Source: Heterobilharzia americana (taxonomy: Eukaryota > Platyhelminthes > Trematoda > Strigeidida > Schistosomatidae). From it: a stretch of DNA of 64,000 bases. The translations under genes were made by a program, and so were the position numbers. The notes beneath the pieces are model-generated. The model saw nothing but the letters and a program-made list of their open reading frames with translations. It did not search any database and had not been told where the DNA came from. The stretch's first letter is position 1, and every line of letters begins with the position of its first letter. The stretch covers positions 37,865,920 to 37,929,919 of the forward strand of contig OX104128.1 of the NCBI GenBank assembly GCA_944470555.2, read 5' to 3'. Of this stretch, positions 18,890-42,500 are shown one piece after another.

Positions 18890-19320
18890 TTGACAAATTC
18901 GAACATCGCAAGAACAAAGGCATTTGCAGAATAAACTGAGCTCATTTTATTTCATCAGCTGCAAACAGTTTACAACTGAAATGAATTATCAGTAGTAATT
19001 ATAATATAAACACGCAGAAATAAATAGAGATTTGAAATCCAGAATTAACAATATGGTAGTGAGTCAAGGAAACAGAGGATTAATGGTTACACATCTTCGT
19101 CAAAATCTATGGTTATTCATATCTGATGAGATGGAAAATTCTGGAGCTGTGAAGTGGGGCGATAACGAACGAAAATCAGTGTAAAAGGAGGGATTGTTTA
19201 AGGGCTAACAGGTTACGTAATAACATGAAAATCGTCAGGTGATTAATAGTCAATAAATAACTTATGAAGAGATGATGCAATCAAAGGAAAAGGGAAAACT
19301 ATATACATTCACATTTAAAA
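18890..19320 (-). repeat. Penelope pseudo-LTR, copy 1 (inverted partner at 20273-20700)
   Basis: Sequence directly downstream of a Penelope-like coding end. Its reverse complement matches 20273-20700 over most of its length, for example the stretches around 18935 / 20650 and 19070 / 20520. Such flanking repeats in direct or inverted order are a known trait of Penelope-like elements. Confidence 0.85.
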
Positions 19321-20212
19321 AATTATATACATTTACCAAGGTGAATCACAGTCTTCTTCTGAGTACATAGGTCGGGTTGTAAATGTTTGATAGCGAGATC
19401 TTCCGCAAACCGTGATAAACATGGTGTTCTTTGTTTGTTGATGATCCTGAAAGATTGAGAAACATCTATTTGGTATCCTGTTCCCATCAGATGCTTGGCT
19501 ATTGCGCTTTTAAAGACCTTGCTACCATTCAGACACATATTTATCGGAATATACTCATATAATCGAGTAGACACCCTTCTTTCAGTCCATCTTAATTACT
19601 TGCTACCACAAGCACAGGTGAATTGATATACGCAGTTGAAGGTGACGTGAGATTGGTATTTATCTACTTTCGACTGTTATTGAGCGTAATGTATTGTAAG
19701 GTAAGATCAGTCTGGAAGCAGGGAAGCTCCTTCTCAGTGCAGCTTTTATTCTTCTGTCTATTCTCTCAGATGTCTCATCACCTCTGAATGCTACGTGAAA
19801 GAAAACAAGATTTTTTTCAACAGTTGGGTGTTTTGGTCTCTCAATAAATTCTTTTCCCTGCTTCATAATGAATTTCTTCGGGTATCCATTCTCTATAAAA
19901 GCCTTCCCACTTATCTCGAATTCTTCTTATTTATCTTTAGATCACAGCCTTTTTTATTCTAGTGAATAGCATCCTGACTAAACCACATTATAGCTGACAG
20001 GACAGAAGCTATTGTAGTGAAGGTGCTGATCAATGCACGTGTCTTTTCTGTGGACAGTTTTCTCAACTGTACCATCACATCGCCTTATACTTAGATCCAG
20101 AAAATTAAATCCGTCCTCATTTTCATATCCCATTGTAAAATTAATATTTGGGTGAGCTTGATGGAGAGTGTCGAACAACTTTGACGCATGATTCATATTA
20201 TCACAAACAATG
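19321..20212 (-). mobile_element. Penelope-like element, late reverse transcriptase to GIY-YIG end
   Basis: The minus strand has NEDGFNFLDLSIRRCDGTVEKTVHRKDTCID in pieces (20110-20020), the post-catalytic block of Penelope reverse transcriptase, then the linker (19866-19660). The nuclease tail ends with LCTQKKTVIHLG near 19330. A few bases of the same tail in plus orientation (20213-20272) close the other side, so the two pseudo-LTRs face outward. Confidence 0.88.
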
Positions 20213-20700
20213 AAACTTTACCTATGTACTCAGAAGGAGACTGTGATTCACCTTGGTAAATGTATATAATTTTTTACATATGTATGTATATAGTCTTCCC
20301 TTTTCTTTCGATTGCATCATCGCTTCATTAATTACTTACTGGATGTAATTACGTAACCTATTAGCTCTTAAACAGTCCCTCCTTTTACACTGATTTTCGT
20401 TTGTTGTCACCCCCCCTCCCCCACTCTACAGCTTCAGAATTTTCCATCTCATCAGATATGAATAACCACAGATTTTAACTAAGATATGCAACTATTAATT
20501 CTGTGTTTCCTTGATTCACTACCATATTGTTAATTCTGGATTTTAAATCTCCAATTATTTCTGTGTTTAAAGTATGTTATGTTATTATTACTACTGATAA
20601 TTCATTTCAGTTGTAGGCTGTTTGCAGCTGATGAAAAGCCATGAAATAAAACGAGCTCGATTTATTCTGGGAATGTCTTTGTTCTTGCATTTCTGTAAAC
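20213..20700 (+). repeat. Penelope 3' tip plus pseudo-LTR, copy 2 (inverted)
   Basis: It begins with the last codons of a Penelope-like ORF in plus orientation (YLCTQKETVIHLGK, 20220-20268) and continues into the inverted match of 18890-19320. With copy 1 it makes an inverted repeat of about 0.45 kb arms and a 0.9 kb spacer. Confidence 0.85.
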
Positions 20701-20868: not shown

Positions 20869-21420
20869 TTACCTCTTGTAAAGAGAAACTTTAGAGATGA
20901 GATTACCAGCCAGTTTTTTGATATATGACATATAAGTATCAGCTAGTAGTGGTTCTAAGGGACTACCCATAGCTACACCGTCAACTTGTCGAAAGCGTTC
21001 AGCTTCAAATGTAAAGTGGACTTTGTCGGTACACAGCAATAATAGCTGCCTCTGAAAATTTGAAGTAATAGGAAATGGGAGGTTTCTAGGGGATATATAG
21101 TTATAGAGAATGCTAATAGTCTTAGACAATGGCACGTTAGTGAATAAACAATTTACATCGAAATAGTACATAATTTCGTTTTTTATATTCATGTTACTAA
21201 GACAGTTAACAATTTGAAAAGAATCTTTCAATGAAAACTTACAGAATTCATTTCGAACTGGATTCAATATTCTCATCAGCCATTTTGCCAGTTCATGTGT
21301 GGGGGAACGACACATAAACAATATAGAGCGTAAAGGATTATTAGCTTTATGAATCTTAGGTAATCCATATAAATTTAAAAACTCGGATTCCTACATCTTC
21401 AAATAATTAAAGTTGGTTAA
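20869..21420 (-). mobile_element. Penelope-like element, reverse transcriptase core
   Basis: A 150-codon open stretch (21321-20869) covers reverse transcriptase motifs: CRSPTHELAKWL, YFDVNCLFTNVPL (the Asp of motif A, residues 53-65) and DGVAMGSPLEPLLADTYMSY (motif B, residues 114-133). The LPKIHK-like block lies upstream at 21330-21365 behind a frame change. The catalytic YVDD block is missing because the pseudo-LTR copy at 20213-20700 interrupts the element. Confidence 0.92.
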
Positions 21421-22200: not shown

Positions 22201-22257
22201 AAAGTTCTGTGAATGAATTTGAGCAGAAATCCGAAGTGCTTATATAGATATATATAT

Positions 22258-22450
22258 ATGCTTCGTCTTATTGTAGGGCTCCTCAGTAGTACGCACTCAC
22301 GACCCGGCTACGGAACGAACTCAGGACTTTCAGGTGTTACGGCGAACGCGTTAACCATTCAGCCACTGGGTCGAAGTTCAATGGTTCATAATTTCCAACT
22401 TCTGTAAATTCGCGATACAGCGCGACTATCACCGAAGATCTTCAGTTGGC
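22258..22450 (-). mobile_element. Hammerhead SINE, 3'-truncated copy
   Basis: Minus strand: a leader shared with the 24.7 and 28.1 kb copies (to about 22450), a box A-like AGTGGCTGAATGGTTAAC (about 22378-22360), a box B-like GAGTTCGTTCC and then hammerhead bases CTGAGGAG. Stem II is degraded and GAAG replaces GAAA, near 22298-22260. It ends in a short AT run, so stem III and the cleavage site are lost. Confidence 0.75.
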
Positions 22451-22587
22451 ATTCGCTTTCTTTCCCGAATGGTCACGACCTCGTATTAGAACTTCGAGAT
22501 ATTCATCTGGGACTATGTTACTTAAGAGCACTATATAGCAATTTATTTTGAGGTTAAGGGGGATTTGTTTTTAAGATACCATTCATC

Positions 22588-22745
22588 ATGAACTGACATG
22601 AAACCTGAAGGTCCTGAGTTTGATCCCTAGTCGGGTCGTGGGTGCGTACTGACGAAGAGTCCTATACGAGGACTAAACAGCTGCCAAGTGCTTCCAGATT
22701 TTCAATGGTTCCCCAACTGATGTCAATCCATGATAGATCCCAGAC
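22588..22745 (+). mobile_element. Hammerhead SINE, 5'-truncated copy, divergent from the previous one
   Basis: The plus strand keeps the box B side (GAGTTTGATCCC, 22615-22626) and a damaged hammerhead (22645-22694). It has an insertion in the CUGANGA core, TAAA for GAAA, and GCC instead of GUC at the cleavage site. The 3' tail matches other copies. Box A is lost. Confidence 0.75.
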
Positions 22746-23137: not shown

Positions 23138-23499
23138 AATCAGTGAGTATTTAATATCTTGTTTATGTGAAAATAAAGATAAAACAATGTTAACTTTATA
23201 GGAAAATTCTAGGGAGGATTTAGCGTATATACTCAGAAAAATCACATTTTCAAACGTTGTATTTATGCACTCATCGAAAATTGATTGAAATCACTCGAAT
23301 AATAATGGTGAATTCTAGAAAACTGTTATGTAATAAGAATGATCTGGGATGAAATAAAAATATAAGGCGCTAAAAGAAGACTGATTTTACAAGACGATAT
23401 CATTTCGTAGCTTCTCTAAAAACACACAACACCTAACATGGTTCACGATAATAAGTTATTCGTTAATATTTCTCTTCAGTTAGGTGAAGTCAAAGAAAA

Positions 23500-23925
23500 T
23501 ATTAATAGTCGGTGATGATTGAAAACGAAATGAAAATTTGGACCGCAACAGGATTCGAACCAGTGACCGTTGGGTTTCTGGTCCGATGCTCTACCAACTG
23601 AGCTACGAGGTTCAACTACTGACCAAATTTTTATTTCATTCCAATCACCAAGGGTTCAGTTAGTTCTGGATTGGGATGACAAGTCCTGACTGGGCAGCCA
23701 GTGTAAATACGATCAAGCGGTAGTAACGCATCACGAATTCACATGATAGTCGGGGAAAACCCGCCTTGGTGATTGAAGCGAAATAACAACCTGATCAGCA
23801 GTCGTATCTCTTAGCTCAGTTAGTAGAGCATCAGACCAGAAACATCGGTGGTCGCTGGTTCGAATCCGGTCGCGGTCCAAATTCTCATTTCACCTTCAAT
23901 CACACAGTATAAATACTAGTCTGCC
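23500..23925. mobile_element. Palindromic double-tRNA element, copy 1
   Basis: Two inverted arms each carry a tRNA-like Pol III head. The left arm is on - (23540-23612) with GCTCAGTTGGTAGAGC as D-arm/box A and GGTTCGAATCC as box B. The right arm is on + (about 23805-23878) with GCTCAGTTAGTAGAGC and GGTTCGAATCC. Outer ends mirror each other (GGTGATGATTGAA against TTCAATCACACAG), and so do the inner stretches around ATCACCAAGG. Both heads would transcribe outward. The acceptor stems do not pair, so neither arm is a working tRNA gene. Confidence 0.85.
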
Positions 23926-24679
23926 AAACCATGGTTATCTTAGATAGACAAGAAAGATAAAATATTGATAATCAGTCTTTATTATACTGAATCAAGTAGC
24001 CCAGGATAGATGAAGGGTCACATTCATTATATTCTGAACATACAATTTTAGGGTGAGCGTATTTGATTGATCCAAAGCGCTTGTAGCACATTTAATAATT
24101 TTAGATTGCGGTTATGTGAAACAATTGAAAGAGAATCATTAGTATTGATTTTTTTATCAGTTATCAATAAATCCCTGCATATAGATAATGCTGAACTTCT
24201 AATCTTGTTAAGTACATTTAGTTTAACCACTGAAGTGAATCTTCTTTCCCAAGGGTATTGTATCATTCTATTAGCTCTACGCATAAAAGTCTCCTGACAA
24301 CTGTAGGGTGAACTTGTAGATATAATGTATGGTAGAGTTGTTAGCACTGGGAGACAAGATATCCCTGAGGTTAAATGCAGAGAAGTAGCGTAGAAAATGC
24401 GTTTGATATCCGACTGAAACCTTTGATCTGTCAACTACATTATCTGGCCACCTTTGTATAGTAAGTTAACGAAGACTGTTTTCTTTGTTACCGTAACTTT
24501 CTTCTCCATGAGTAGTTGGTGTTTACTGTGGCATACAATGATTTTTTCCGTATAACTACTGCTCTGTAAAACTGAGTGTATAAATTGTATTTCACCATCT
24601 AGTGTATCGCTGGTACATATTCTACAAGGTCTTGAGAATTGACACTTAACAAAACAACGTTTCAAGTTGTTATTCATCG

Positions 24680-24940
24680 AAGACTGACATCAGTTCGAGG
24701 AACAAAGGGAACCTGAGAGCACTGGACAGCTGTTTCGTCCTAGTATGGGAGTCCTCAGCAGTGCGCACCCACGACCCCACACCGGCAGGGATCGAACCCG
24801 CGACCTTCAGGTTCCGCGGCCAGCGCGTTACCATTGAGCCACTGGGTCAGAATCCAATGCTCCATATTTCCAACTTCTGTTAGCTCACGATATAGCGCAA
24901 ACCGCCACCCAATGTCATCGTTGAGTATCTGTCCTCACGG
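24680..24940 (-). mobile_element. Hammerhead SINE, best-preserved copy
   Basis: On the minus strand it has a leader (24940-24865), box A-like TGGCTCAATGGTAACGCGC (about 24841-24823), box B-like GGGTTCGATCCCTG (about 24800-24786), a GC-rich linker and a hammerhead ribozyme (24764-24719). A conserved tail ends near 24680. The layout (tRNA-like Pol III promoter followed by a hammerhead) is that of the Sm-alpha retroposons of schistosomes, but with other stem sequences. It is inserted in a Penelope-like copy. Confidence 0.88.
24719..24764 (-). ncRNA. Type I hammerhead ribozyme, nearly intact
   Basis: 5' to 3' on -: stem I strand GCACUG (24764-24759), core CUGAGGA (24758-24752), stem II 24751-24737, GAAA (24736-24733), stem III CAGCUGU (24732-24726), cleavage C (24725), stem I partner CAGUGC (24724-24719). 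Stem I pairs perfectly over six bases. All conserved core bases and the GUC cleavage triplet are present. The only defect is the closing pair of stem II, which is C-C here where the 27.9 kb copy has G-C. Stem III with the last A of GAAA is the self-complementary ACAGCUGU with no loop, suggesting activity mainly as a dimer. Confidence 0.87.
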
Positions 24941-25511
24941 CCATCAGGCTATGACTCTACTGGTTTATCCAACGTTTATCCTGGATAACAACCTTCTGAT
25001 AGCTCCATCTGATGATTAAAATGTTCAGAAAACTCAATTAATCACTCCATTTTATATTCCGATGCCACATAAATATTTGGATGAACAATATTGAATAAGG
25101 TAGTACAGTCAATAATTGATTCATGATTTTCATCTATGACAAGAATATCATCCACATAACGTTTTTAGAAAGCAAAGTTTTGTAACATACTTTCCATTTG
25201 TTTTTCCAAGTACGTCAGCTAACAGGGGGTCCAAAAGAGATCCCTATCGATCTACTTGTTTGCTTTATTTTGAAAGTTGTATCTGAAGTTATGTGTACAC
25301 CACAGAATGAGGTTCATCATTAGAGAGACTAGTAACAGTAGTTGAATTTTATTAGGTTTACATAGTAAAAAAAATAAATACCGCTACTTCATATAAAGGA
25401 ACATTAGTAAAGAAATTTTACAGTGCTAGAGTATTTACAAGTTCTATGTTAGTTGCATGGAGGCATTCGGCAGGAAGTCTTTCACCTAGGTATCGTGCTT
25501 GTTGGCACTCC

Positions 25512-27227: not shown

Positions 27228-27700
27228 TTTAGTTGATGATTGAAGTCGAAGTGAAAATCTGGGCCATGGTAAGATCCGAAACAGTAACCCCTGGGTTGTC
27301 AGCCTGCTACTTTTATCAACTGAGTTAAGAGATCCGACTGCTGACCAAATTTCCATTTCACCTCAATCATCAAGGGTTTTTCCTGACTGCCGTTAGAAGT
27401 TGTGATGCGTTACTGTCGTTTAATCGTACTCACATTGGATTTAAATTAGCATGAGAAGTCCTAACTGGCCAGCCAGCATGAGCACGACGAAGCGGTAGTA
27501 ACGCATCACGAATTCATATAGTAGTCGGGCAAAATCCTTGGTGATTGAAATGAAATAAAAAAACTGGTCAGCAATCACGTCTCGTAGCTCAGCTGTTAGA
27601 GCACCGGAGTGGTAACCCGGGCGTCGCCCGTTTGAAACCTGCAGCAACACAGATTTTCATTTCACCTAAATCACCACCCAGTATCAGTACACGTCTGCCA
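27228..27700. mobile_element. Palindromic double-tRNA element, copy 2
   Basis: Same family as 23500-23925, and the inverted match extends through most of its length. GTGATGCGTTACTGTCG near 27393 mirrors CGGTAGTAACGCATCAC near 27490, and the tRNA-like heads lie at about 27265-27340 (-, decayed) and 27575-27650 (+, with GCTCAGCTGTTAGAGC and a box B reading CGTTTGAAACC). A short asymmetric centre of about 50 bp separates the arms. Confidence 0.85.
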
Positions 27701-27884
27701 AACCATGGTTATCTTAGATACTCAAACTGATGTGTTCATATGATTATTTTCACCAAATCTTAACTTTCAATGCATTTTCATTAGTTGTATCAAACTTTTA
27801 TGACCGTTCCTTGTGTTACGTAATACTATTTCATTCCCTCTATATTGTGTCTACATTGTCATATTACTTACATTAAGTTAGAAT

Positions 27885-28060
27885 TCATCATGGACTGACA
27901 TCAGTTGGAGGAATACTGAAAACCTGGGAGTCCTGGACAGCTGTTCTGTCCTAGTATGGGACTCCACAGCAGTGCGTACCCAATACCCCGCCAACAATCG
28001 AACCCCGGACTTCAGGTCCCGTAACCAGCACATTACCATTGAGCCAGTGGAGTCAACCGA
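27885..28060 (-). mobile_element. Hammerhead SINE copy with damaged core
   Basis: Minus strand: tRNA-like box A remnant (28055-28030), box B region near 28000, hammerhead 27975-27930, tail to 27885. The core reads CUGUGGA (conserved A6 changed to U) and GAAA has become AGAA. Stem II GUCC...GGAC and the CAGCUGU stem III are intact. Predicted inactive. Confidence 0.83.
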
Positions 28061-28074
28061 GTAGAACATGAAGA

Positions 28075-28350
28075 CAGTTACTCTACGACAACATTGGATG
28101 TAGGTTGCGCTATATCGTCAACTGATAGAAGTTGGAAATATGAACCGTTGGATTCCTACCCAGTGGCTCAATGGTAACGTGCTGGCCTCGGAACCTGGAG
28201 GTCGGTATTGGGTTCAATCCCTGATGGGGCAGGGTCATGGGTGGCGCACTGCTGGGGAGTACCATACAAGTAGGACGAAACAGCTGTCCACTGCTCCCAA
28301 GTTCCCAGTGTTCCTCCAACTGATGTCAGTCCATGATGAATTCCAACCTA
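28075..28350 (+). mobile_element. Hammerhead SINE copy, divergent from the previous one
   Basis: The plus strand shows leader 28085-28140, box A-like AGTGGCTCAATGGTAAC (28162-28178), box B-like GGGTTCAATCCCTG (28210-28223), hammerhead 28246-28294, and a tail to about 28350. GAAA, stem III and the GUC site are kept. The core reads CUGGGGA (A6 to G), stem II has extra bases and stem I has one mismatch, so weak or no activity is expected. Confidence 0.85.
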
Positions 28351-28679
28351 AAATCAATTAATAAATCTCTACGAACCTCCAGATAGATATTACTTATTTA
28401 TTTACGGATACATAGCTACGGAAGTAAGTCATCGAAAAGATAACTATCTTCGCTGTGTCCCCTGTGACCTCTACAATCAATACTCAGTTGAGCTTTTAAA
28501 AATGTCTCCGATCATCTAATACATCAATCAAAGTGCACAGTGATGCTGAGTCTCCTAGCCTGATGACCACATTACAAAACTGATCAATATAAGTCGGTCA
28601 GCATGTAGTACTTAACAGCATGAAATTGGCTACTCTCCACTGAGCAAGCAACGTAGCTGATCCAGTCTTATAAGTGATC

Positions 28680-28860
28680 AATCCCAGTCCGAATAGCTCA
28701 GTGGTAACGTCTCTGACTGCAACATTGGGTGACACAGGTTCGAATCTCACAGCGGACATCCATTCATTCTAGGTTACAGGTACGCTTTGCTCATGAGTGC
28801 TGACAGGCACGAAACCTACATGCAGGACTTCCTGCAGATTACCTCTAACAGTCTAGCATC
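28680..28860 (+). mobile_element. Third tRNA-headed SINE with hammerhead-like motif
   Basis: Plus strand: box A-like AATAGCTCAGTGGTAACG (28692-28709), box B-like GGTTCGAATCTC (28738-28749), then at 28790-28814 a hammerhead-like core. CTCATGA stands for CUGAUGA (G5 changed), stem II is GUGC-UGACAG-GCAC, followed by GAAA. A CCU/AGG hairpin and a C cleavage position follow, and CAGG/CCUG and AGGU/ACCU can pair in the outer stem I. The stem sequences differ from the other two families. Confidence 0.6.
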
Positions 28861-28999
28861 AATAAACATTCGTATCTAACATTTCCAGGACCGCGAGCAT
28901 GATAGCTTCTGTTTTCGAGGAATGCAGACATCAAAAGTGAGGACTGAAGTTTATTACTCGAAGGGTTCATATGTATATTAGTGATATTTGTGATAGAAT

Positions 29000-29385
29000 T
29001 ATTAATACTGGGTGATGATTGAAGGTGAAGTGAAGATTTGGACCGCAGCCGGATTTGAACCAGCGACCAACGGGTTTCCGGCCCCATGCTCTACCAACTC
29101 ACCTATGAGGTACGACTGTTGACCACATTTTTATTTCACTTCAATCACCAAGGGTTTTGCCAGACTACCGTGTGAATTCGTGACGTGTTACTACCACTTG
29201 TTCGTATTCACACTGGCTGCCCAGTCAGGGCTTCTCATACCAATCCAAATCAAACTGAATTAGAAAGGGGGAGCATGATATTGATTACCATTTTGACCGG
29301 TAGTCACTGGTTTGAATCTGGCAGTGATCCAAAGTTTTTACTTCACCTTCAATCATCATCCAGTATCAATACTAGTCTGCCAAAC
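29000..29385. mobile_element. Palindromic double-tRNA element, copy 3
   Basis: Same outer ends as copies 1 and 2 (GGTGATGATTGAAGGTGAA on the left, TTCACCTTCAATCATCATCC on the right). The left arm head is on - at about 29040-29115. The right arm has lost most of box A but keeps a box B-like GGTTTGAATCTG near 29310. It lies just downstream, on the gene strand, of BRMS1-like exon 2. Confidence 0.82.
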
Positions 29386-29456
29386 TACAGCTTTCTCAGA
29401 TAGTCAAAATGACATAATTATAAGTAATATGTTACAAAGAATACTTATATACTCAC

Positions 29457-30616: not shown

Positions 30617-31706
30617 CATTTGTCCTTTGGGTTCCTAGTGGAACGTAGGGCTTCAGTAGACGTCGCCACTTCACTCTGTTCTCTGTAGTCTCTGACTCAA
30701 CCTGGCTCCACAACTGCCCAGAAGCTTTCATCTCTTCCTCACATGATCTCCTACATGTCACCCTCGCATGCCCAACTCATCATTTCCCATTTGGCTTCCA
30801 CTCGACACCCTGGCCTGGCACATAATGTCCCCATACGGTCTTCTTAGTCTATGTTCAATCCAATCCATTCCTTTTTTCTTCCGCATATTTGTTGGGCGAT
30901 GGGTTCTTAGCTGGTTCGATCCCGAAGTTCCCTGTTGCTTATTCTTTCTGGCCTTCTGCTCTTGAGTGTCATTATCGAGTGCAGGCGGCAGCTGTTGAAG
31001 TATGTCTGCAGTTTGTTGGAAATGGTTTCAGTAACGCGCCAAGCCTCTCAACCATCACATAGAAGCACTGACTTGACTGACTTAGTGTTGAAAATCCGGA
31101 TCTTTTTCCTTATGCAGAGTTGAGTGTAGTAGATCTCCACACTGATTTTAGATTAATGAAGGCCCATCTTACTTTTCCGATCCTGCCTTTGACATCCTCG
31201 TCTGTGCCACCGCCGCCTGTAGTTGAAACGATGCTGCCTAGGCAGGTAAAAGAGGCGACCTCCTTTTGGTTTCTCCTGTTGATGGTGATTGGTACTTTTT
31301 ATTGTTGATCGGTTGGGTATCGTCATCACATCTGTCTTCTCTACGTTCACTTGAAGTCCTGACTTCGCTGCCTCGCTTCTTCTGCCAACTTGTTGGTTTT
31401 CGCCTGTAGATCTTCGAGTTTGTGCGACATTGGGCATAAATCATCATCGGCGAAATCCAAACCTTCTAGGGTCTTTTTATCCGTCAAACAGCGTATGTCC
31501 ATCTTCTCGCTCCTCACAGTTTGTTGCATGATCCAGTGCAATTGACCACAATCACGATGATGATCGGTGATAGTAGGCAACCTCGTCTTACTCCTGTGTC
31601 CTGTCTTCACTTCAAAGGCATCACTGAGCTTTCCACTGTGAATCACCTGGCATGTAGCATCCACATATAGTATATAGCTGTTGAACGAGGTTGAGAAAGG
31701 TTTGTG
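30617..31706 (-). mobile_element. RTE subfamily A, 5'-truncated copy
   Basis: Minus strand: reverse transcriptase from the DATCQVIHSGKLSDAFE block (about 31660-31610), through GLDFADDDLCPMSHKLEDLQ (about 31460-31400), to RRSCEEEMKASGQLWSQV and the 3' end near 30617. Frameshifts are frequent. Its 5' end sits against Penelope pseudo-LTR sequence at 31707, so it inserted into or beside that element. Confidence 0.88.
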
Positions 31707-31799
31707 GTAAGGATGATGCCATAGGTATTTGTGATTATGATAACAATTGAAATATGAATGACAGCAAAGTAGATTACGTAACACATGGAATGGTTCATA
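31707..31799 (-). repeat. Penelope pseudo-LTR fragment (inverted partner at 33042-33130)
   Basis: About 90 bp whose reverse complement matches 33042-33130 with only scattered differences. It directly follows the coding end of the Penelope-like copy at 31800-33060. Confidence 0.8.
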
Positions 31800-33060
31800 G
31801 AAGGTATATAAAGTAGGAGGTTTGGACGAATTCGATAAATAATTTTAAAGTCATTGTCTGGGTTTGTTGAGTGATGGAAATCAATCAAATGTTCTAGAAT
31901 CGAATTTCTAACAGACTTTCTCTCACCTTTATAAAACCAAGCAGGAACATGTTCTCGTATACATGTAGGAAGTATTCTCTGGCTACGGCCAATGTACCTT
32001 GCTCGACAACAGCAGATGAACTGGTAGATGCACACAGAGGTGGCTAAACGAGGAAGTTTATCTTTAACACAAATTGACAATAGTTTACGGTTGTGAAAAT
32101 TCAAATGAAGTCTTACTGCGAAGAAAGTTCTATTGATTGATCCACATGCACGATTCTTGGGTACATCTGATGCTTGGTCACCTTTAAATTCTAGACTCAG
32201 CAACAATATTTTATTTCAGACTGAGTAAATGACCAGTTTAGTGTTTCTTTCCCGCATATTTTTATCAATAAAACGGCTAGGGTAACCGTTTCCGATAAGT
32301 GTGCTTCCTAAAAAAGATAGCTATTCATCACTACAGATATTTCTGATTCGATAACGGTGTGTGTGTGTGAGACAGAGAGAGAGAGAGAGAGGGAGAGAAT
32401 GAATAAGACTTCTTTCTCCGTTGACAGCCACCCAACTACAAAAATTAGTTAGTTGTCCGTTCCATGTTGCTTTTCTACAGATAGATCTTTTGAGGCATCC
32501 ATTCAGACGTCGAGTGAGAAGCACATCAAGAAAAGGAATAGTTAGTTCTTATTCCTTCTCTATGGTAAACTTGAGGGTTTGATGACATTCATTAACTGAA
32601 CGAAGAACACCGTCCAGATCAACATTTTTGTCACAAGTAACAAACGTGTCGTACATTTGTCTTCTTTAAAATTCAAAGTTATTAAGAGTGTGATAAAGTT
32701 GAGAATTCTCTAGTTTCGACATCAAAAAGTTTGCTAACAATGGTCCCAATGGTGACCCCATCGCGATTCCATCTCTCTGTCTATAGATTTCATTAATGAA
32801 ACTAAATCAGGTATTAAATGTGCACCTCGACAAAAGCTCTTTCAAGCAGCCGGTTGGTAGTCCTATGTCTAAATTATGTGCATCATTATAGTCATACATA
32901 TTACAGACAGTCTCTGTGAGTGGCACACTCGCGAACAACGAAGTAACGTATAGTGAAAATATCATTTTGTCTAAAGCATTAAAATCTTAAACACCCTCAA
33001 CAAACTGAAATATATCACGCATAGAAGAACTTAACACCACCCATTCCATGTATTACGTAA
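31800..33060 (-). mobile_element. Penelope-like element, reverse transcriptase remnant to GIY-YIG end
   Basis: Minus strand: reverse transcriptase pieces (33000-32560, with a GVAMGSPLGPLLAN-like block near 32760), linker (32520-32210), and a 187-codon open stretch (32206-31643). That stretch holds CIYQFICCCRARYIGRS (YIG motif, about 32010) and REHVPAWFYKGERKSVRNSILEHLIDFHH (in pieces). The nuclease end is the best kept of all Penelope copies here. A (GT)(GA) run interrupts the linker. Confidence 0.9.
32358..32400. repeat. (GT)n(GA)n simple repeat
   Basis: Short GT then GA dinucleotide runs inside the Penelope linker; the Leu/Ser run in the minus frame is an artefact of it. Confidence 0.9.
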
Positions 33061-33130: not shown

Positions 33131-33299
33131 TATGGTCGAAACAAAACCGATCATGTTGCGGAAAGAAACACTCAATAGGTAGGTTGTTATTTCCCGTTGC
33201 TATACAGGGACAAAATTCCCGACCTCTGTTGACAGGCGGGCTCTTATGAGGGTGCCTCATTACTCCCGATCATTCATCATTTACATTGATCTTGGTCAC

Positions 33300-33470
33300 T
33301 CACAGAAAAATCCAGAGCACGCATCTCGTCCCAGTTGGGACTCGTCAACTGGATGTACCTGCATCCTAGTGAGGCTCGAACCCAGTACCAATCGCTTCAA
33401 ACGCCAGAGCGTCATCCATTAGACCACTCAGGCACGATAGCGATTCGGCCCTGTATAGCAACAGGAAATT
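33300..33470 (-). mobile_element. Sm-alpha-like hammerhead SINE, minus copy
   Basis: Minus strand: box A-like GTCTAATGGATGACGC (about 33424-33405), box B-like GGGTTCGAGCCTC (about 33385-33370), hammerhead 33354-33310. Stem I (AUCCAG/CUGGAU) and stem II (GUCCC-AACU-GGGAC) are perfect and resemble the S. mansoni Sm-alpha ribozyme. Three key bases are changed: UUGACGA for CUGANGA, GAGA for GAAA, and a U at the cleavage position. Predicted inactive. Confidence 0.85.
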
Positions 33471-33509
33471 ACAAATATCAGAATAGCAACTTATACTCGT
33501 TCCAAAAGA

Positions 33510-33692
33510 GGCGGCTATCGTGCACCAGTCGCTTAGTGGATAACGCTCTGGCATTTGAAGCAAAGAGTACTTGGTTCGAGCCCCGGCGGGAACAACATCA
33601 CTCCACACTGGGGTGCAGGTACGTCCCAGATGACGAGTCCCAAATAGGACCAAACGAGCGTTGTGGATCCCTCTGTTAGTCAGTAAGACCAA
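33510..33692 (+). mobile_element. Sm-alpha-like hammerhead SINE, plus copy
   Basis: Plus strand: box A-like AGTCGCTTAGTGGATAACGC (33525-33544), box B-like TGGTTCGAGCCCC (33572-33584), hammerhead about 33620-33671. Stem II GUCC/GGAC with loop CAAAUA equals that of Sm-alpha as I remember it. The core reads AUGACGA (C3 to A) and CAAA (G12 to C), so it should not cleave. It is head-to-head with the 33.3 kb copy. Confidence 0.85.
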
Positions 33693-34289
33693 TTGAATAG
33701 GTAGATTGTTGGTCTACTCACAATATAAACAAAGATAAATCATGATTCGTTTAACATTGCTCAGAAATTACTTCGACATACTTTGAAAAAGCTTTTTCAG
33801 ATTAACGCGATAACTACCAGTAGTTTAATTTCTTTGAAGACCTTCATTCCTTTGTAACTGAATACGTCTCAAAATAATCTTCGCAAAAAGATTCACGCGT
33901 AGAAAATTGTTAACTTAAATGAAATAAAACTAAAAGTTCACTTCAGAGGTGCCAATAACTTTTAAAAATTTTGTAAGCGATTCCGTTGAACACCATTTCT
34001 GAAACAACCAGCACTAACGACAACTTCCTAAAACGTTAGCTTCCTTAATGCTCACCCACCTTAATACAGATATAAGGTAGAAAAAAATCAACGTAAAACC
34101 TCTCACGGAAGTGCATCGCTTCAAGTTGTTACGCTTTACAGTAGGATACAAAGAACCAGTGGATATAAAAAGAAAGACATAAAAGTAGACAAAGGTTTTT
34201 GGGAGGAAAAGAAATTTGAAAATCAATATACACCAAACAACTTAGACCAAAAGTTAGAAACTTCATGGACAACTCCCAGGTCTTGATCT
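33693..34289. other. Intronic DNA, unassigned
   Basis: AT-rich intron 1 sequence of the BRMS1-like gene; no element recognised. Confidence 0.5.
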
Positions 34290-36160
34290 AGTATTCATGA
34301 GCTTTCTTCAAACCTAATCCAACTTTATCTAGCATTATACATCGAGACAGACGGTAGCTTAGCATGTGCAACACATATCGAAGCCATTTCATTCGAAGAT
34401 TTTACCATACGTGAGAAATGCCACGAAAACTTCTATGGTCAAAACCTGAAATTACTTCATATCATCTACATTCAACGGTAACACATGCCAGTCACCTGAG
34501 CTAGTTAACATTCACAGCCTTACCAACTGACTTCACTCTTCTTCCTAAAACTCCACACCTCACTTCTACATTGCTGACGTGGTGACAATAGCACACTGCA
34601 TATACCACAAGCACAACAGTGGTCGAACACGTGAAGCCTCACCACGTCCTCTACCTTGAATGGCTATGTCCAGCAGCCATACAGTAGAACAGGATGAACC
34701 ACAGTGCAGTAAACTCCACCCTAAATCGTTATCTGGATACCACAAAAGTGCCGAAAATGGATTAGATTGGTGAATGACAAGTGAGCTAGTTTTATCCGTG
34801 CAGAGATTCTATCGGTCAGTTAGCCAATATGACTGGTAAAAATTCCCATATAGGTGAAGTGATAAGCGCGTTCAACCACTTCTCTTGCAGTCGTCAGACA
34901 ACGCACCAATGCAGACTAGACCTGGAGCAACAATCTGCGGTTTGGTGATGACAAACTTATCCAATCATTTCCAAATAGTCATTCAAGGCTCTAGAAGTCA
35001 CCGCATCCTATAAGCGTTCTCACTATTTCATCTACGTGCTCTAGATCTACTAAGGATTCTCCTGTGACTAGATCAATCCCTGTGAAGTCAGACGACGAGA
35101 GGAAGACCTCCACATGTATGTCTGTGATAAAGTTGAATAAGTTGTGAGAAAGGATATAGTTGACGGAAACCACTCGACGCACGCAACTCACTTCATATCT
35201 CTCCATGCTCTCTAACACGCCCATGAGTGTTCGAGTATACAACCGTCAAAAGATTGATGTCGTTACTCGGTACCCGTTTTCAGTGAGAGACAATCGTTTA
35301 ACCTCTCGATCGGTGGAATTGAAAACCGCCTTCATGTTGAGAAATGAAGCTGTTGTCGGGCGTCGGTGAGTGTGCCGATGTTTCCGGGATCTGTTGGAAA
35401 GTGAAGATCTGGTCGATACACTTATAAGTAGGTCTAAAACCCTCACGGTTTTTTCAGGTTCGCTGTTCCCGAGCTCATAATTATAGGAACTAGAATCTCA
35501 GGCAATATGCTTGTCACACTGGTTCCTTTGCTGTAATCACAAGACGGCTTCTCACCTTTCTTGAAAACTGGGGCAATCCGTGATTGAAACCCACCAGAGG
35601 TGTTCGTATCTTACTCACATAGACTAGCTAACACGTCAGTTAGCCTGATCAGTAGTCGTTGACCACCGTCCCTAAATACCTCTGTCACTAGTCCACCTGG
35701 GGTGGTACCTTTCATTGTTGAGGACTACATAGAACTTTCTCGACTTCTGAAAATGTTGGAGGCCCTATCTTAATGTTTTTATCAAGGATCCTATTGAGTA
35801 GTGGGCAACGGAAGAGAAGATGGAGAGCATTTGAAGTTTTCCGTCCATTGTTCCATTCATCGTGTGTGGGTGAATCTAAAACCCGTCCTTCTCCGCTATG
35901 GTCTTACTAACCTCGGAACTTTCTGCCTCAGTTTTCTTAATAAATCTAAATAACTCTACTTTTACCTATCACAGTTGCCTTTCCCATCTGTTTAGCCTTC
36001 GCTGCCCATGAGTGTTCGCAGTCTACATCCGAGTAGTTCCTGCTCCTCGCTGGGCTTTTACAGGGATGCGTCTGTGTGCATCCGTTTATTCAGAAACTCA
36101 TGAGATCCACTGGTCCTTTTTAACCACTTTTTGAGTCAGTTGCAGTTTATCACACTGTTT
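34290..36160 (-). mobile_element. RTE subfamily B (SR2-like) copy, decayed
   Basis: Minus strand: linker (36160-35700), reverse transcriptase with KHRHTHRRPTTASFLNMKAVFNSTDREV (in pieces, about 35390-35300), SSSDFTGIDLVTGESLVDLEHVDEI (35120-35020; the catalytic ADD appears as VDE), and C-terminal region to about 34300. Many stops. The part 34484-35386 is nearly identical, inverted, to 41578-42476. Confidence 0.85.
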
Positions 36161-40819: not shown

Positions 40820-42500
40820 ATCGGCCATTAAGCTTTGCTAGCCAAAAGTCTGTCATCTCGAATCATGGATCTGAGTTCATGAGACATACAAACAAGTGAG
40901 GTTATTAACCTAACTTCACCTGGCCAATATGGTGAATCTACAAAGCTCACCCTTTGAGTTTCTTGAGATTTGATGACTAGTTCTCGCGGTATTGCAGGTG
41001 GAAGAATAACGTTCAGTAAAGGCAGAAAGCCCATTGCTCGACTAGATCCTACTAGTCAGTCACCTATCTGTAAGACGTTTAACAAAAACAGCACAGTACC
41101 GACTAAAAAGAATAGAGAAAACCATCAATCTCTTTTATATTTCCTACTTACGCGAACAGGTACTGCAGCTCGGATGAAGTGAAGGGTGAATTCTACTGAA
41201 GAATGAAGCCTTCTATGGAAAGCTTAACACTCATATATGGTTGTCTTAGCAGGTGATTTCACTGCACAAGTGGGTAGGGTAGATCAGGCAGAAAAGCGTC
41301 TAGGTGACACTTGAAATCTCAGGCGGAGGAACGGAATATGCCGACCACCTGCTGCAGATTTGCTCACACTGCCATCCATTTCTGGTTAGCACGAACTTTA
41401 AACAGAAACGTATGAATTTTCTGATGTGGTTTCCACCGACCTCGGCTCAGTAGTGGACACACAGACCAACAATTGTCGGTAGAGAAGGTCGATAGGAGTT
41501 TTGCCATGTTTTCTGGAGCACGTGTTTCGACAGCGATTACCCACTGGTTCGAGCACGCATATGCCTAGGCCTTGGAATATCGGCACACTCACCGACGCCC
41601 GACAACAGCTTCATTTCTCAACATGAAGGCGGTTTTCAATTCCACCGATCGAGAGGTTAAACGATTGTCTCTCACTGAAAACGGGTACCGAGTAACGACA
41701 TCAATCTTTTGACGGTTGTATACTCGAACACTCATGGGCGTGTTAGAGAGCATGGAGAGATATGAAGTGAGTTGCGTGCGTCGAGTGGTTTCCGTCAACT
41801 ATATCCTTTCTCACAACTTATTCAACTTTATCACAGACATACATGTGGAGGTCTTCCTCTCGTCGTCTGACTTCACAGGGATTGATCTAGTCACAGGAGA
41901 ATCCTTAGTAGATCTAGAGCACGTAGATGAAATAGTGAGAACGCTTATAGGATGCGGTGACTTCTAGAGCCTTGAATGACTATTTGGAAATGATTGGATA
42001 AGTTTGTCATCACCAAACCGCAGATTGTTGCTCCAGGTCTAGTCTGCATTGGTGCGTTGTCTGACGACTGCAAGAGAAGTGGTTGAACGCGCTTATCACT
42101 TCACCTATATGGGAATTTTTACCAGTCATATTGGCTAACTGACCGATAGAATCTCTGCACGGATAAAACTAGCTCACTTGTCATTCACCAATCTAATCCA
42201 TTTTCGGCACTTTTGTGGTATCCAGATAACGATTTAGGGTGGAGTTTACTGCACTGTGGTTCATCCTGTTCTACTGTATGGCTGCTGGACATAGCCATTC
42301 AAGGTAGAGGACGTGGTGAGGCTTCACGTGTTCGACCACTGTTGTGCTTGTGGTATATGCAGTGTGCTATTGTCACCACGTCAGCAATGTAGAAGTGAGG
42401 TGTGGAGTTTTAGGAAGAAGAGTGAAGTCAGTTGGTAAGGCTGTGAATGTTAACTAGCTCAGGTGACTGGCATGTGTCACATACGCGTAGTCACTATGTT
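40820..42500 (+). mobile_element. RTE subfamily B mosaic copy
   Basis: Plus strand: endonuclease pieces (40917-41408; frames together give a GVGIALS-like block and AGDFTAQVGRVDQAEKRLG near 41250-41310), a 170-bp junction region, then reverse transcriptase and C-terminal region (41578-42476). The first block is nearly identical, inverted, to 16528-17018 and the second to 34484-35386, including their inactivating stops. The reverse transcriptase N-terminal part is missing. Confidence 0.88.

Follow-up and report, generated by a model that had tools for sequence, protein, structure and literature searches.

Type I hammerheads in tRNA-headed repeats of the schistosomatid Heterobilharzia americana and their head-to-head pairing

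The stretch considered here, hereafter the window, comprises 64,000 nucleotides of Heterobilharzia americana, a blood fluke of dog and raccoon (GenBank assembly GCA_944470555.2, contig OX104128.1, positions 37,865,920 to 37,929,919 of the forward strand). It contains an ESCO exon, the first 132 residues of which are identical to an H. americana protein (best other match in Trichobilharzia regenti, 68%), and an EHD reading frame. Two more reading frames, 20869-21390 and 31643-32215 (both on the minus strand), resemble, by their motifs, parts of a Penelope-like reverse transcriptase and of a GIY-YIG domain; Pfam gave no match for either, and inverted repeats at 18950-20636 adjoin the first. A further inverted repeat (34478-35382 and 41576-42480) has 905-nt arms, 100% complementary and 6.2 kb apart, and is either a recent inverted duplication or a set of long terminal inverted repeats. 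The subject of this work is a short repeat on the minus strand, named c1, with the following features:

24663..24969, minus strand: element c1, made of an upstream region, a tRNA-like head, a hammerhead and a 3' region (edges from alignment to other copies)
24831..24841, minus strand: box A-like TGGCTCAATGG (from the sequence)
24789..24798, minus strand: box B-like GGTTCGATCC (from the sequence)
24719..24764, minus strand: type I hammerhead with palindromic stem III ACAGCUGU (RF00163, 37.1 bits)
24655..24662, no strand: left direct repeat CAACGTTT of c1, a possible target site duplication (8 of 8 positions identical; reached by 13 of 1000 random pairs and by 16 of 400 in a second null)
24970..24977, no strand: right direct repeat CAACGTTT of c1 (same tests as the left repeat)

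The interval 24719-24764 is a type I hammerhead. A first-pass annotation, made from the letters of the window, had placed one there and proposed an Rfam search as a check; RF00163 matches exactly 24764-24719 with 37.1 bits, over the cut-off of 34 (E = 1e-5 for 64 kb and 4227 families). As annotated, the core is complete (CUGAGGA, GAA, A15.1-U16.1 and C17) and stem I is a perfect 6-bp helix, GCACUG/CAGUGC. Stem II has a C-C mismatch at its base, and the predicted cut lies between 24725 (C17) and 24724. Folding by energy gives another picture, the lowest-energy structure of the 46-mer (-10.4 kcal/mol) differing from the hammerhead (-5.2 kcal/mol), with z = -0.23 for the fold energy of 76 nt. With regard to a possible stem I-loop II tertiary contact, an outer UGGG/CYCA helix, separated from the inner stem I by an internal loop, can be drawn from the flanks, and the energy fold of c1 pairs UGGG with CUCA. 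In the family to which c1 belongs, stem III is the perfect palindrome ACAGCUGU; palindromic stems III of this kind occur in dimeric hammerheads, according to the passages drawn on from PMC3088659.

Four further copies of this family and a fragment lie in the window, together with two copies of a second family, denoted s:

27871..28055, minus strand: copy c3, short arm of the head-to-head pair c3/c2 (alignment; Rfam)
28041..28386, plus strand: copy c2, arm with a conserved 33-nt 3' tail (5' edge approximate, overlapping c3)
22255..22442, minus strand: copy c4, the 3' half of its hammerhead lost into an AT repeat (alignment)
22600..22745, plus strand: copy c5, degraded (alignment)
22545-22599, minus strand: tail-only arm between c4 and c5 (tail profile)
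33189..33445, minus strand: copy s1 of an Sm-alpha-like family (hammerhead 33310-33354, 36.3 bits)
33450..33695, plus strand: copy s2 of the same family (hammerhead 33624-33668, 40.0 bits)

The annotation had counted five c copies of one layout. The number is right, but c1 is the only one to pass the Rfam cut-off: relics in c3 (27930-27975) and c2 (28246-28294) score 27.8 and 17.6 bits, below it, and c4 and c5, the latter with several core changes, give no Rfam match at E up to 1. The head of c1 does lie upstream of the hammerhead, with a gap of 24 nt from box B in place of the 25-35 bp first estimated, and its two boxes and tRNA likeness bear out the reading as a tRNA-headed SINE. At a lowered threshold ARAGORN reads c1 as tRNA-Pro(tgg), c2 as tRNA-Pro(CGG), s2 as tRNA-Gln(ctg) and s1 as Ser(tga), the heads of c3-c5 being without isotype; at the default threshold it finds no tRNA among the heads of c1-c5, s1 and s2. 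The 3' edge of c1 is ..AACTTG, without the 33-nt tail, and several genomic copies have a longer upstream region. In several long c copies a conserved region of about 100-180 nt precedes box A, which is unexpected for a transcript starting at an internal tRNA-type promoter and speaks against the reading preferred below.

The hammerheads of s1 and s2 exceed the Rfam cut-off and belong to a family different from c; neither this second family nor the head-to-head pairing described below had been noticed in the annotation. They are of the type of the RF00163 consensus, which we take to be that of Sm-alpha; the top Rfam score is common to 12 places in the genome. The stem set of c was annotated as unlike Sm-alpha, and the comparison agrees: relative to the Rfam consensus, stem I is GCACUG/CAGUGC vs AUCCAG/CUGGAU, loop II CAUACUA vs CAAAUA and stem III ACAGCUGU vs ACGCGCGU. 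With these stems and a Pro-like head, c falls outside Sm-alpha.

The abundance of these repeats in the 665-Mb assembly was estimated from stretches at round coordinates (200 kb and a further 50 kb). The first 200 kb hold 30 c and 23 s copies, with 16 copies of a third tRNA-headed family, u; the held-out 50 kb hold 5 c and 1 s, so that the 250 kb total 35 c, 24 s and 16 u. Rfam, run on 15 of the first 20 stretches (150 kb), finds 15 hammerheads over the cut-off. Scaled to 665 Mb, with a wide error, c has about 9 x 10^4 copies and s about 6 x 10^4, and some 7 x 10^4 hammerheads exceed the cut-off; a c copy number of order 10^5 is shown. Among 207,358 first-look candidates from the H. americana genome, the best 74 were scored and all 74 exceed the cut-off, and none of the 14 control genomes matched in the hammerhead candidate search. 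Exact 21-base patterns match nothing in viral and prokaryotic contigs, as expected, and a loose regular-expression scan for hammerhead cores was dropped after returning hundreds of chance matches. No satellite array of c was seen in the sequence examined. One 10-kb stretch of the sample (C2:50000001-50010000) holds five matches to U6atac snRNA, each of 50.3 bits, at a spacing of about 1.98 kb, and is a tandem array of minor-spliceosome snRNA genes.

The u family is represented in the window by three units (23497-23951, 27234-27730 and 28997-29412) without Rfam hammerhead match, each a head-to-head palindrome with a differently truncated centre; ARAGORN reads one of the heads as Ser. A third hammerhead family, v1 (28687-28845, plus strand) and v2 (25618-25460, minus strand), was suspected from motif likeness and abandoned for lack of an Rfam match. 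These two copies are a tRNA-headed repeat with a hammerhead-like relic; v1 has CUCAUGA, GUGC..GCAC and GAAA.

Alignment of the c family joins the five window copies to 34 of the 35 sample copies (one, under 60 bp, was dropped). Of these 39, 31 cover the hammerhead, and the counts that follow are blind to insertions relative to c1. The canonical base is the majority at every core position, in keeping with the complete-core founder proposed in the annotation, and the core is intact in 9 of the 31. The C of c1 at 10.1 is private to it (1/31); G stands there in 4 of the 5 window copies and in 26 of the 31 from window and sample, which restores a G-C pair at the base of stem II as had been anticipated. 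We read this as functional founders of c, whose individual copies then decayed neutrally. The founder RNA probably cleaved itself.

The annotation had made covariation in the stems a test of its reading. Such covariation appears between c and s and is lacking among the 31 c copies. Between the families (window copies c1, c2, c3, c5, s1 and s2; c4, having lost its 3' half, is omitted), 6 of 14 stem pairs are altered on both sides, vs at most 2 in slid controls, and shuffles reach 6 in 6 of 500 trials; this is mostly one between-family difference, hence few events. Within c, paired cells amount to 0.831, equal to the shuffled mean of 0.831, and both-side changes number 6 vs 5.4 in shuffles, as is expected of copies that decay after insertion. 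That c is a chance or decayed repeat with no ribozyme history, as the energy fold of c1 might suggest, is a negligible possibility in view of the E value of 1e-5, the canonical majority of 31 copies and the between-family covariation.

In the window, all six close pairs of listed tRNA-headed SINEs (heads at most 300 bp apart) are head-to-head and same-family, an outcome reached by random placement in 0 of 20000 trials and by orientation alone in 43 of 200000. One of them, c4/c5, was dropped as a clean pair when the tail-only arm was found between its copies; it is still counted among these six and in the loose-edge, partner-identity and derived-state tests below, and is not among the judged pairs. 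In the 250-kb sample, 11 head-to-head same-family pairs (8 c, 3 s) lie within 150 bp, vs a mean of 0.61 and a maximum of 5 in 5000 random placements. At this distance the sample holds no mixed-family head-to-head pair, one same-family and one mixed tail-to-tail pair, and three same-family (all u) and two mixed tandem pairs; one c-c tandem neighbour pair (L021) is 209 bp apart. All 11 pairs come from the initial 200 kb; among the 6 copies of the held-out 50 kb there is no pair. Among eight loci fetched for their top scores (L001-L008), L006 and L008 carry two inverted hammerhead arms each and L001 and L004 an inverted arm starting inside the hammerhead, L002, L003 and L007 are without inverted arm, and L005 lies near a c copy. 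In L006 and L008, which are Sm-alpha-type palindromes, no tRNA head is visible between the arms, and a few bases beyond the tails are also inverted.

Two of the window pairs are flanked as wholes by direct repeats:

27861..27870, no strand: left direct repeat ATATTACTTA of pair c3/c2, target site duplication (edges from the tail model)
28387..28396, no strand: right direct repeat ATATTACTTA of pair c3/c2 (edges from the tail model)
33174..33188, no strand: left direct repeat AATAGGTAGGTTGTT of pair s1/s2, target site duplication (from the sequence)
33696..33710, no strand: right direct repeat AATAGGTAGATTGTT of pair s1/s2, with 1 mismatch (from the sequence)

The outer repeats of c3/c2 are identical at 10 of 10 positions (2/1000 in the null, 1/400 in the second null) and those of s1/s2 at 14 of 15 (0/1000 and 0/400). 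For c4/c5, the three u pairs, v1 and v2, direct repeats are no better than chance under the second null. When 14 pairs are taken with loose edges, direct repeats of at least 9 occur in 5, vs 7% expected; 8 pairs, including the three s pairs of the sample, score below 8, a value that 20% of the null reaches.

Sharper edges are provided by the 3' ends of the c copies. Some end in a conserved 33-nt tail (about AATCAATTAATAAATCTCCACAAACCTCCAAATT), and others stop just before it, at ..CCAACTTGA. Six c pairs could be judged with edges set by a tail profile (L009, L010, L011, L023, L025 and c3/c2), the second arm of L011 being the tail region alone and this pair not one of the 11 of the sample; L012, L018, two pairs in L021 and c4/c5 were left out (an arm running off the stretch, a missing tail match, fragmentation or an internal deletion). 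In all six, one arm has the 33-nt tail and the other is short, ending at or a few bases from ..CUUGA(AA). Direct repeats at these edges score 11, 4, 7, 10, 12 and 10, where the random fraction scoring at least 10 is 0.001. Repeats of 10-13 bp thus flank the whole palindrome in 4 of the 6 judged pairs, L010 and L011 having no convincing outer repeat. It should be noted that the profile was built partly from the judged loci and runs a few bases past the tail, and that the pattern was first seen in c3/c2, so that the test lacks full independence. Even so, four c pairs or more, as well as s1/s2, have the look of single insertions. As in tRNA-derived SINEs, target site duplications (4 of 6 judged c pairs, and s1/s2) go with a conserved 3' tail, and the c family is almost certainly a hammerhead-bearing SINE. 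A LINE sharing the 33-nt tail was absent from the sequence examined; 2 of 32 tail matches fall away from listed c copies, both to the part before the tail only.

The reading that we prefer, with a probability of roughly 0.7, is that of a tRNA-derived SINE with a self-cleaving hammerhead founder, inserted by twin priming. RNA polymerase III would make the c RNA, and the founder RNA would cleave at its C17, in stem I, either as a single molecule or in a dimer held by the palindromic stem III. The copies would arise from RNA that is uncut or re-joined: the 31 copies spanning the cut site, chosen because they cover it, are continuous across it and insertion ends do not fall there, which makes this state of the inserted RNAs probable. 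A LINE reverse transcriptase would insert c by target-primed reverse transcription, priming beginning either at the RNA 3' end or at the A-rich internal site CUUGAAA, 33 nt before it. In a pair, both cut target strands would prime, one at the end and one internally, and the two cDNAs, running through the hammerhead to the head, would join there at variable points. The product of such twin priming with overlap would be a palindrome whose heads lie in the middle and whose 3' regions lie at the flanks, with a single 33-nt tail and a single outer target site duplication. Copy c1, which stops at the same short edge, may be the product of internal priming alone. For the priming step taken by itself (RNA 3' end plus one fixed internal site), the balance tips only slightly in favour.

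Some properties of twin-primed insertions are found here: inverted and sense segments lie inside one target site duplication in 4 of the 6 judged c pairs and in s1/s2. The expectation of one RNA with little overlap fails, the arms overlapping over hammerhead and 3' region. Simple snap-back synthesis was rejected, as the flank inverted repeats that it predicts were no better than the null (2/14 at 9 or more, null 8%). A piggyBac-like TTAA element, considered from the tail ends, was dropped on the outer repeats and the 33-nt tail.

Concerning the identity of the family, c could be the H. americana form of Sj-alpha from Schistosoma japonicum, a serious candidate to which we nevertheless give rather less than even odds. 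In the passages drawn on from PMC2770079, Sj-alpha carries a hammerhead and S. japonicum has 951 tRNA pseudogenes, of which about 650 come from tRNA-Pro-CGG, the isotype read in c2 at the lowered threshold. Against this, the identity of these Pro pseudogenes with Sj-alpha is itself a deduction, which the same passages do not state.

A different question is how many RNAs enter at one site. Two different same-family SINE RNAs may have been inserted together by dual target-primed reverse transcription, perhaps as a hammerhead dimer. If one RNA made both arms, these should be alike at birth, and the partner counts speak against it: among 14 pairs, each arm has the other as its closest match by identity in 2, and in a further 2 this holds for one arm. 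The perfect palindrome of the c stem III, and the fact that all counted head-to-head pairs are same-family, also fit such joint insertion. Conversely, in 6 of 10 c pairs the two arms have more derived states in common than is usual, a level reached by 10% or fewer of the comparisons between non-partners (26-41% in the other 4), and the u family also pairs without an Rfam hammerhead match, which makes the hammerhead unnecessary for pairing. Two RNAs per pair are possible; joint insertion of this kind is a tentative alternative that we hold unlikely. More speculative still is a wider proposal, that the hammerhead SINEs of H. americana spread largely as fold-back palindromes, each made in one event from two overlapping cDNAs (one from the 3' end, one from the fixed A-rich site 33 nt upstream), with the palindromic stem III perhaps tethering two RNAs as a dimer, both copied at one site. 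We regard it as doubtful. If true, it would be an undescribed insertion mode linking ribozyme dimerisation to retrotransposition, seeding the genome with inverted ribozyme pairs.

The c repeats might also be metazoan retrozymes, the RNA being circularised by hammerhead cutting and ligation and copied from circles. The type I hammerhead with its very short palindromic stem III and the unit of about 300-400 bp would suit, and retrozyme-like repeats are reported from platyhelminths in the passages drawn on from PMC7229834. Moreover, the upstream-region start of s2 (33449-33474) recurs after the s1 tail (33184-33209), as if the s1 RNA were multimeric. This reading is nonetheless improbable, for the 250 kb show no tandem pair of two c or two s copies at up to 150 bp and one c-c pair (L021) within 300 bp, and the element ends off the cut site, with a tRNA head and a one-sided 3' tail. 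Slightly less probable again is nested insertion, in which a second SINE prefers the 5' edge of an earlier copy and faces the other way. Head-to-head pairs whose junctions vary would follow from it as well, and so would outer repeats where the younger copy lay inside the duplication of the older, though no result favours it over the others. The absence of mixed-family pairs beside 11 same-family ones within 150 bp, the one-tail rule in 6/6 judged pairs and the outer repeats abutting both arms in 4/6 stand against it.

On the preferred reading of a twin-primed hammerhead SINE, palindromes that carry a single tail and are enclosed by a single outer duplication would be a natural record of second-strand priming in a LINE/SINE system, and thousands of such loci are expected if the sample is representative. 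Independently of that reading, the results show abundant hammerhead SINEs, belonging to two or more families whose tRNA-like heads differ, in a schistosomatid of North America that lies outside Schistosoma. A PCR survey by Ferbeyre in 1998 reportedly found, by its abstract, no such repeats in H. americana. That survey was PCR-based, and its negative for S. japonicum was later overturned, as the passages drawn on from PMC8490949 relate. In the CC-licensed PMC literature nothing joins H. americana or Schistosomatium douthitti with a hammerhead, and none of the matches listed there, by title and abstract start, concerns hammerhead SINEs in palindromic or head-to-head arrangement. In Schistosoma, hammerhead SINEs have been described (PMC2770079, PMC8490949, in part), and Heterobilharzia is positioned outside that genus in the portion drawn on from PMC9321907. 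If s is Sm-alpha, its presence in both genera argues for an early origin.

Among known systems, the closest in layout include Sm-alpha, or W36.2, of Schistosoma mansoni (about 335 bp), which shares with c a tRNA-like head, a type I hammerhead, a short stem III and SINE-like dispersal. Its head is tRNA-Gln-like where that of c is Pro-like, and the source drawn on in part derives it from tRNA-Gln-TTG (PMC2770079). Sj-alpha (Laha et al. 2000) is, by description, alike as a hammerhead SINE. The W25.2, W26.2 and W27.2 repeats of S. mansoni, classed as W-element families in the passages of PMC8490949 and likened to c here by description, have type I hammerheads with very short stems III in repeats weakly like Sm-alpha; of five candidates that the same passages report as tested, taken from W25.2 and W36.2, three cleaved in vitro. 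Metazoan non-LTR retrozymes, as described in part of PMC7229834, likewise have type I hammerheads in repeats of 150-450 bp, with target site duplications of more than 4 bp. The c family differs from them in its tRNA head, its paired inverted copies and the lack of tandem c pairs within 150 bp in the sample. In the twin-primed L1 inversions that Ostertag and Kazazian are said to have described in 2001 (a work cited in PMC6895275), a single target site duplication encloses an inverted segment and, next to it, a sense 3' end. The c pairs resemble these in having an inverted and a sense 3' segment within one duplication, and differ in that both arms span the same region, which makes a palindrome, and in that the internal start lies at one fixed place.
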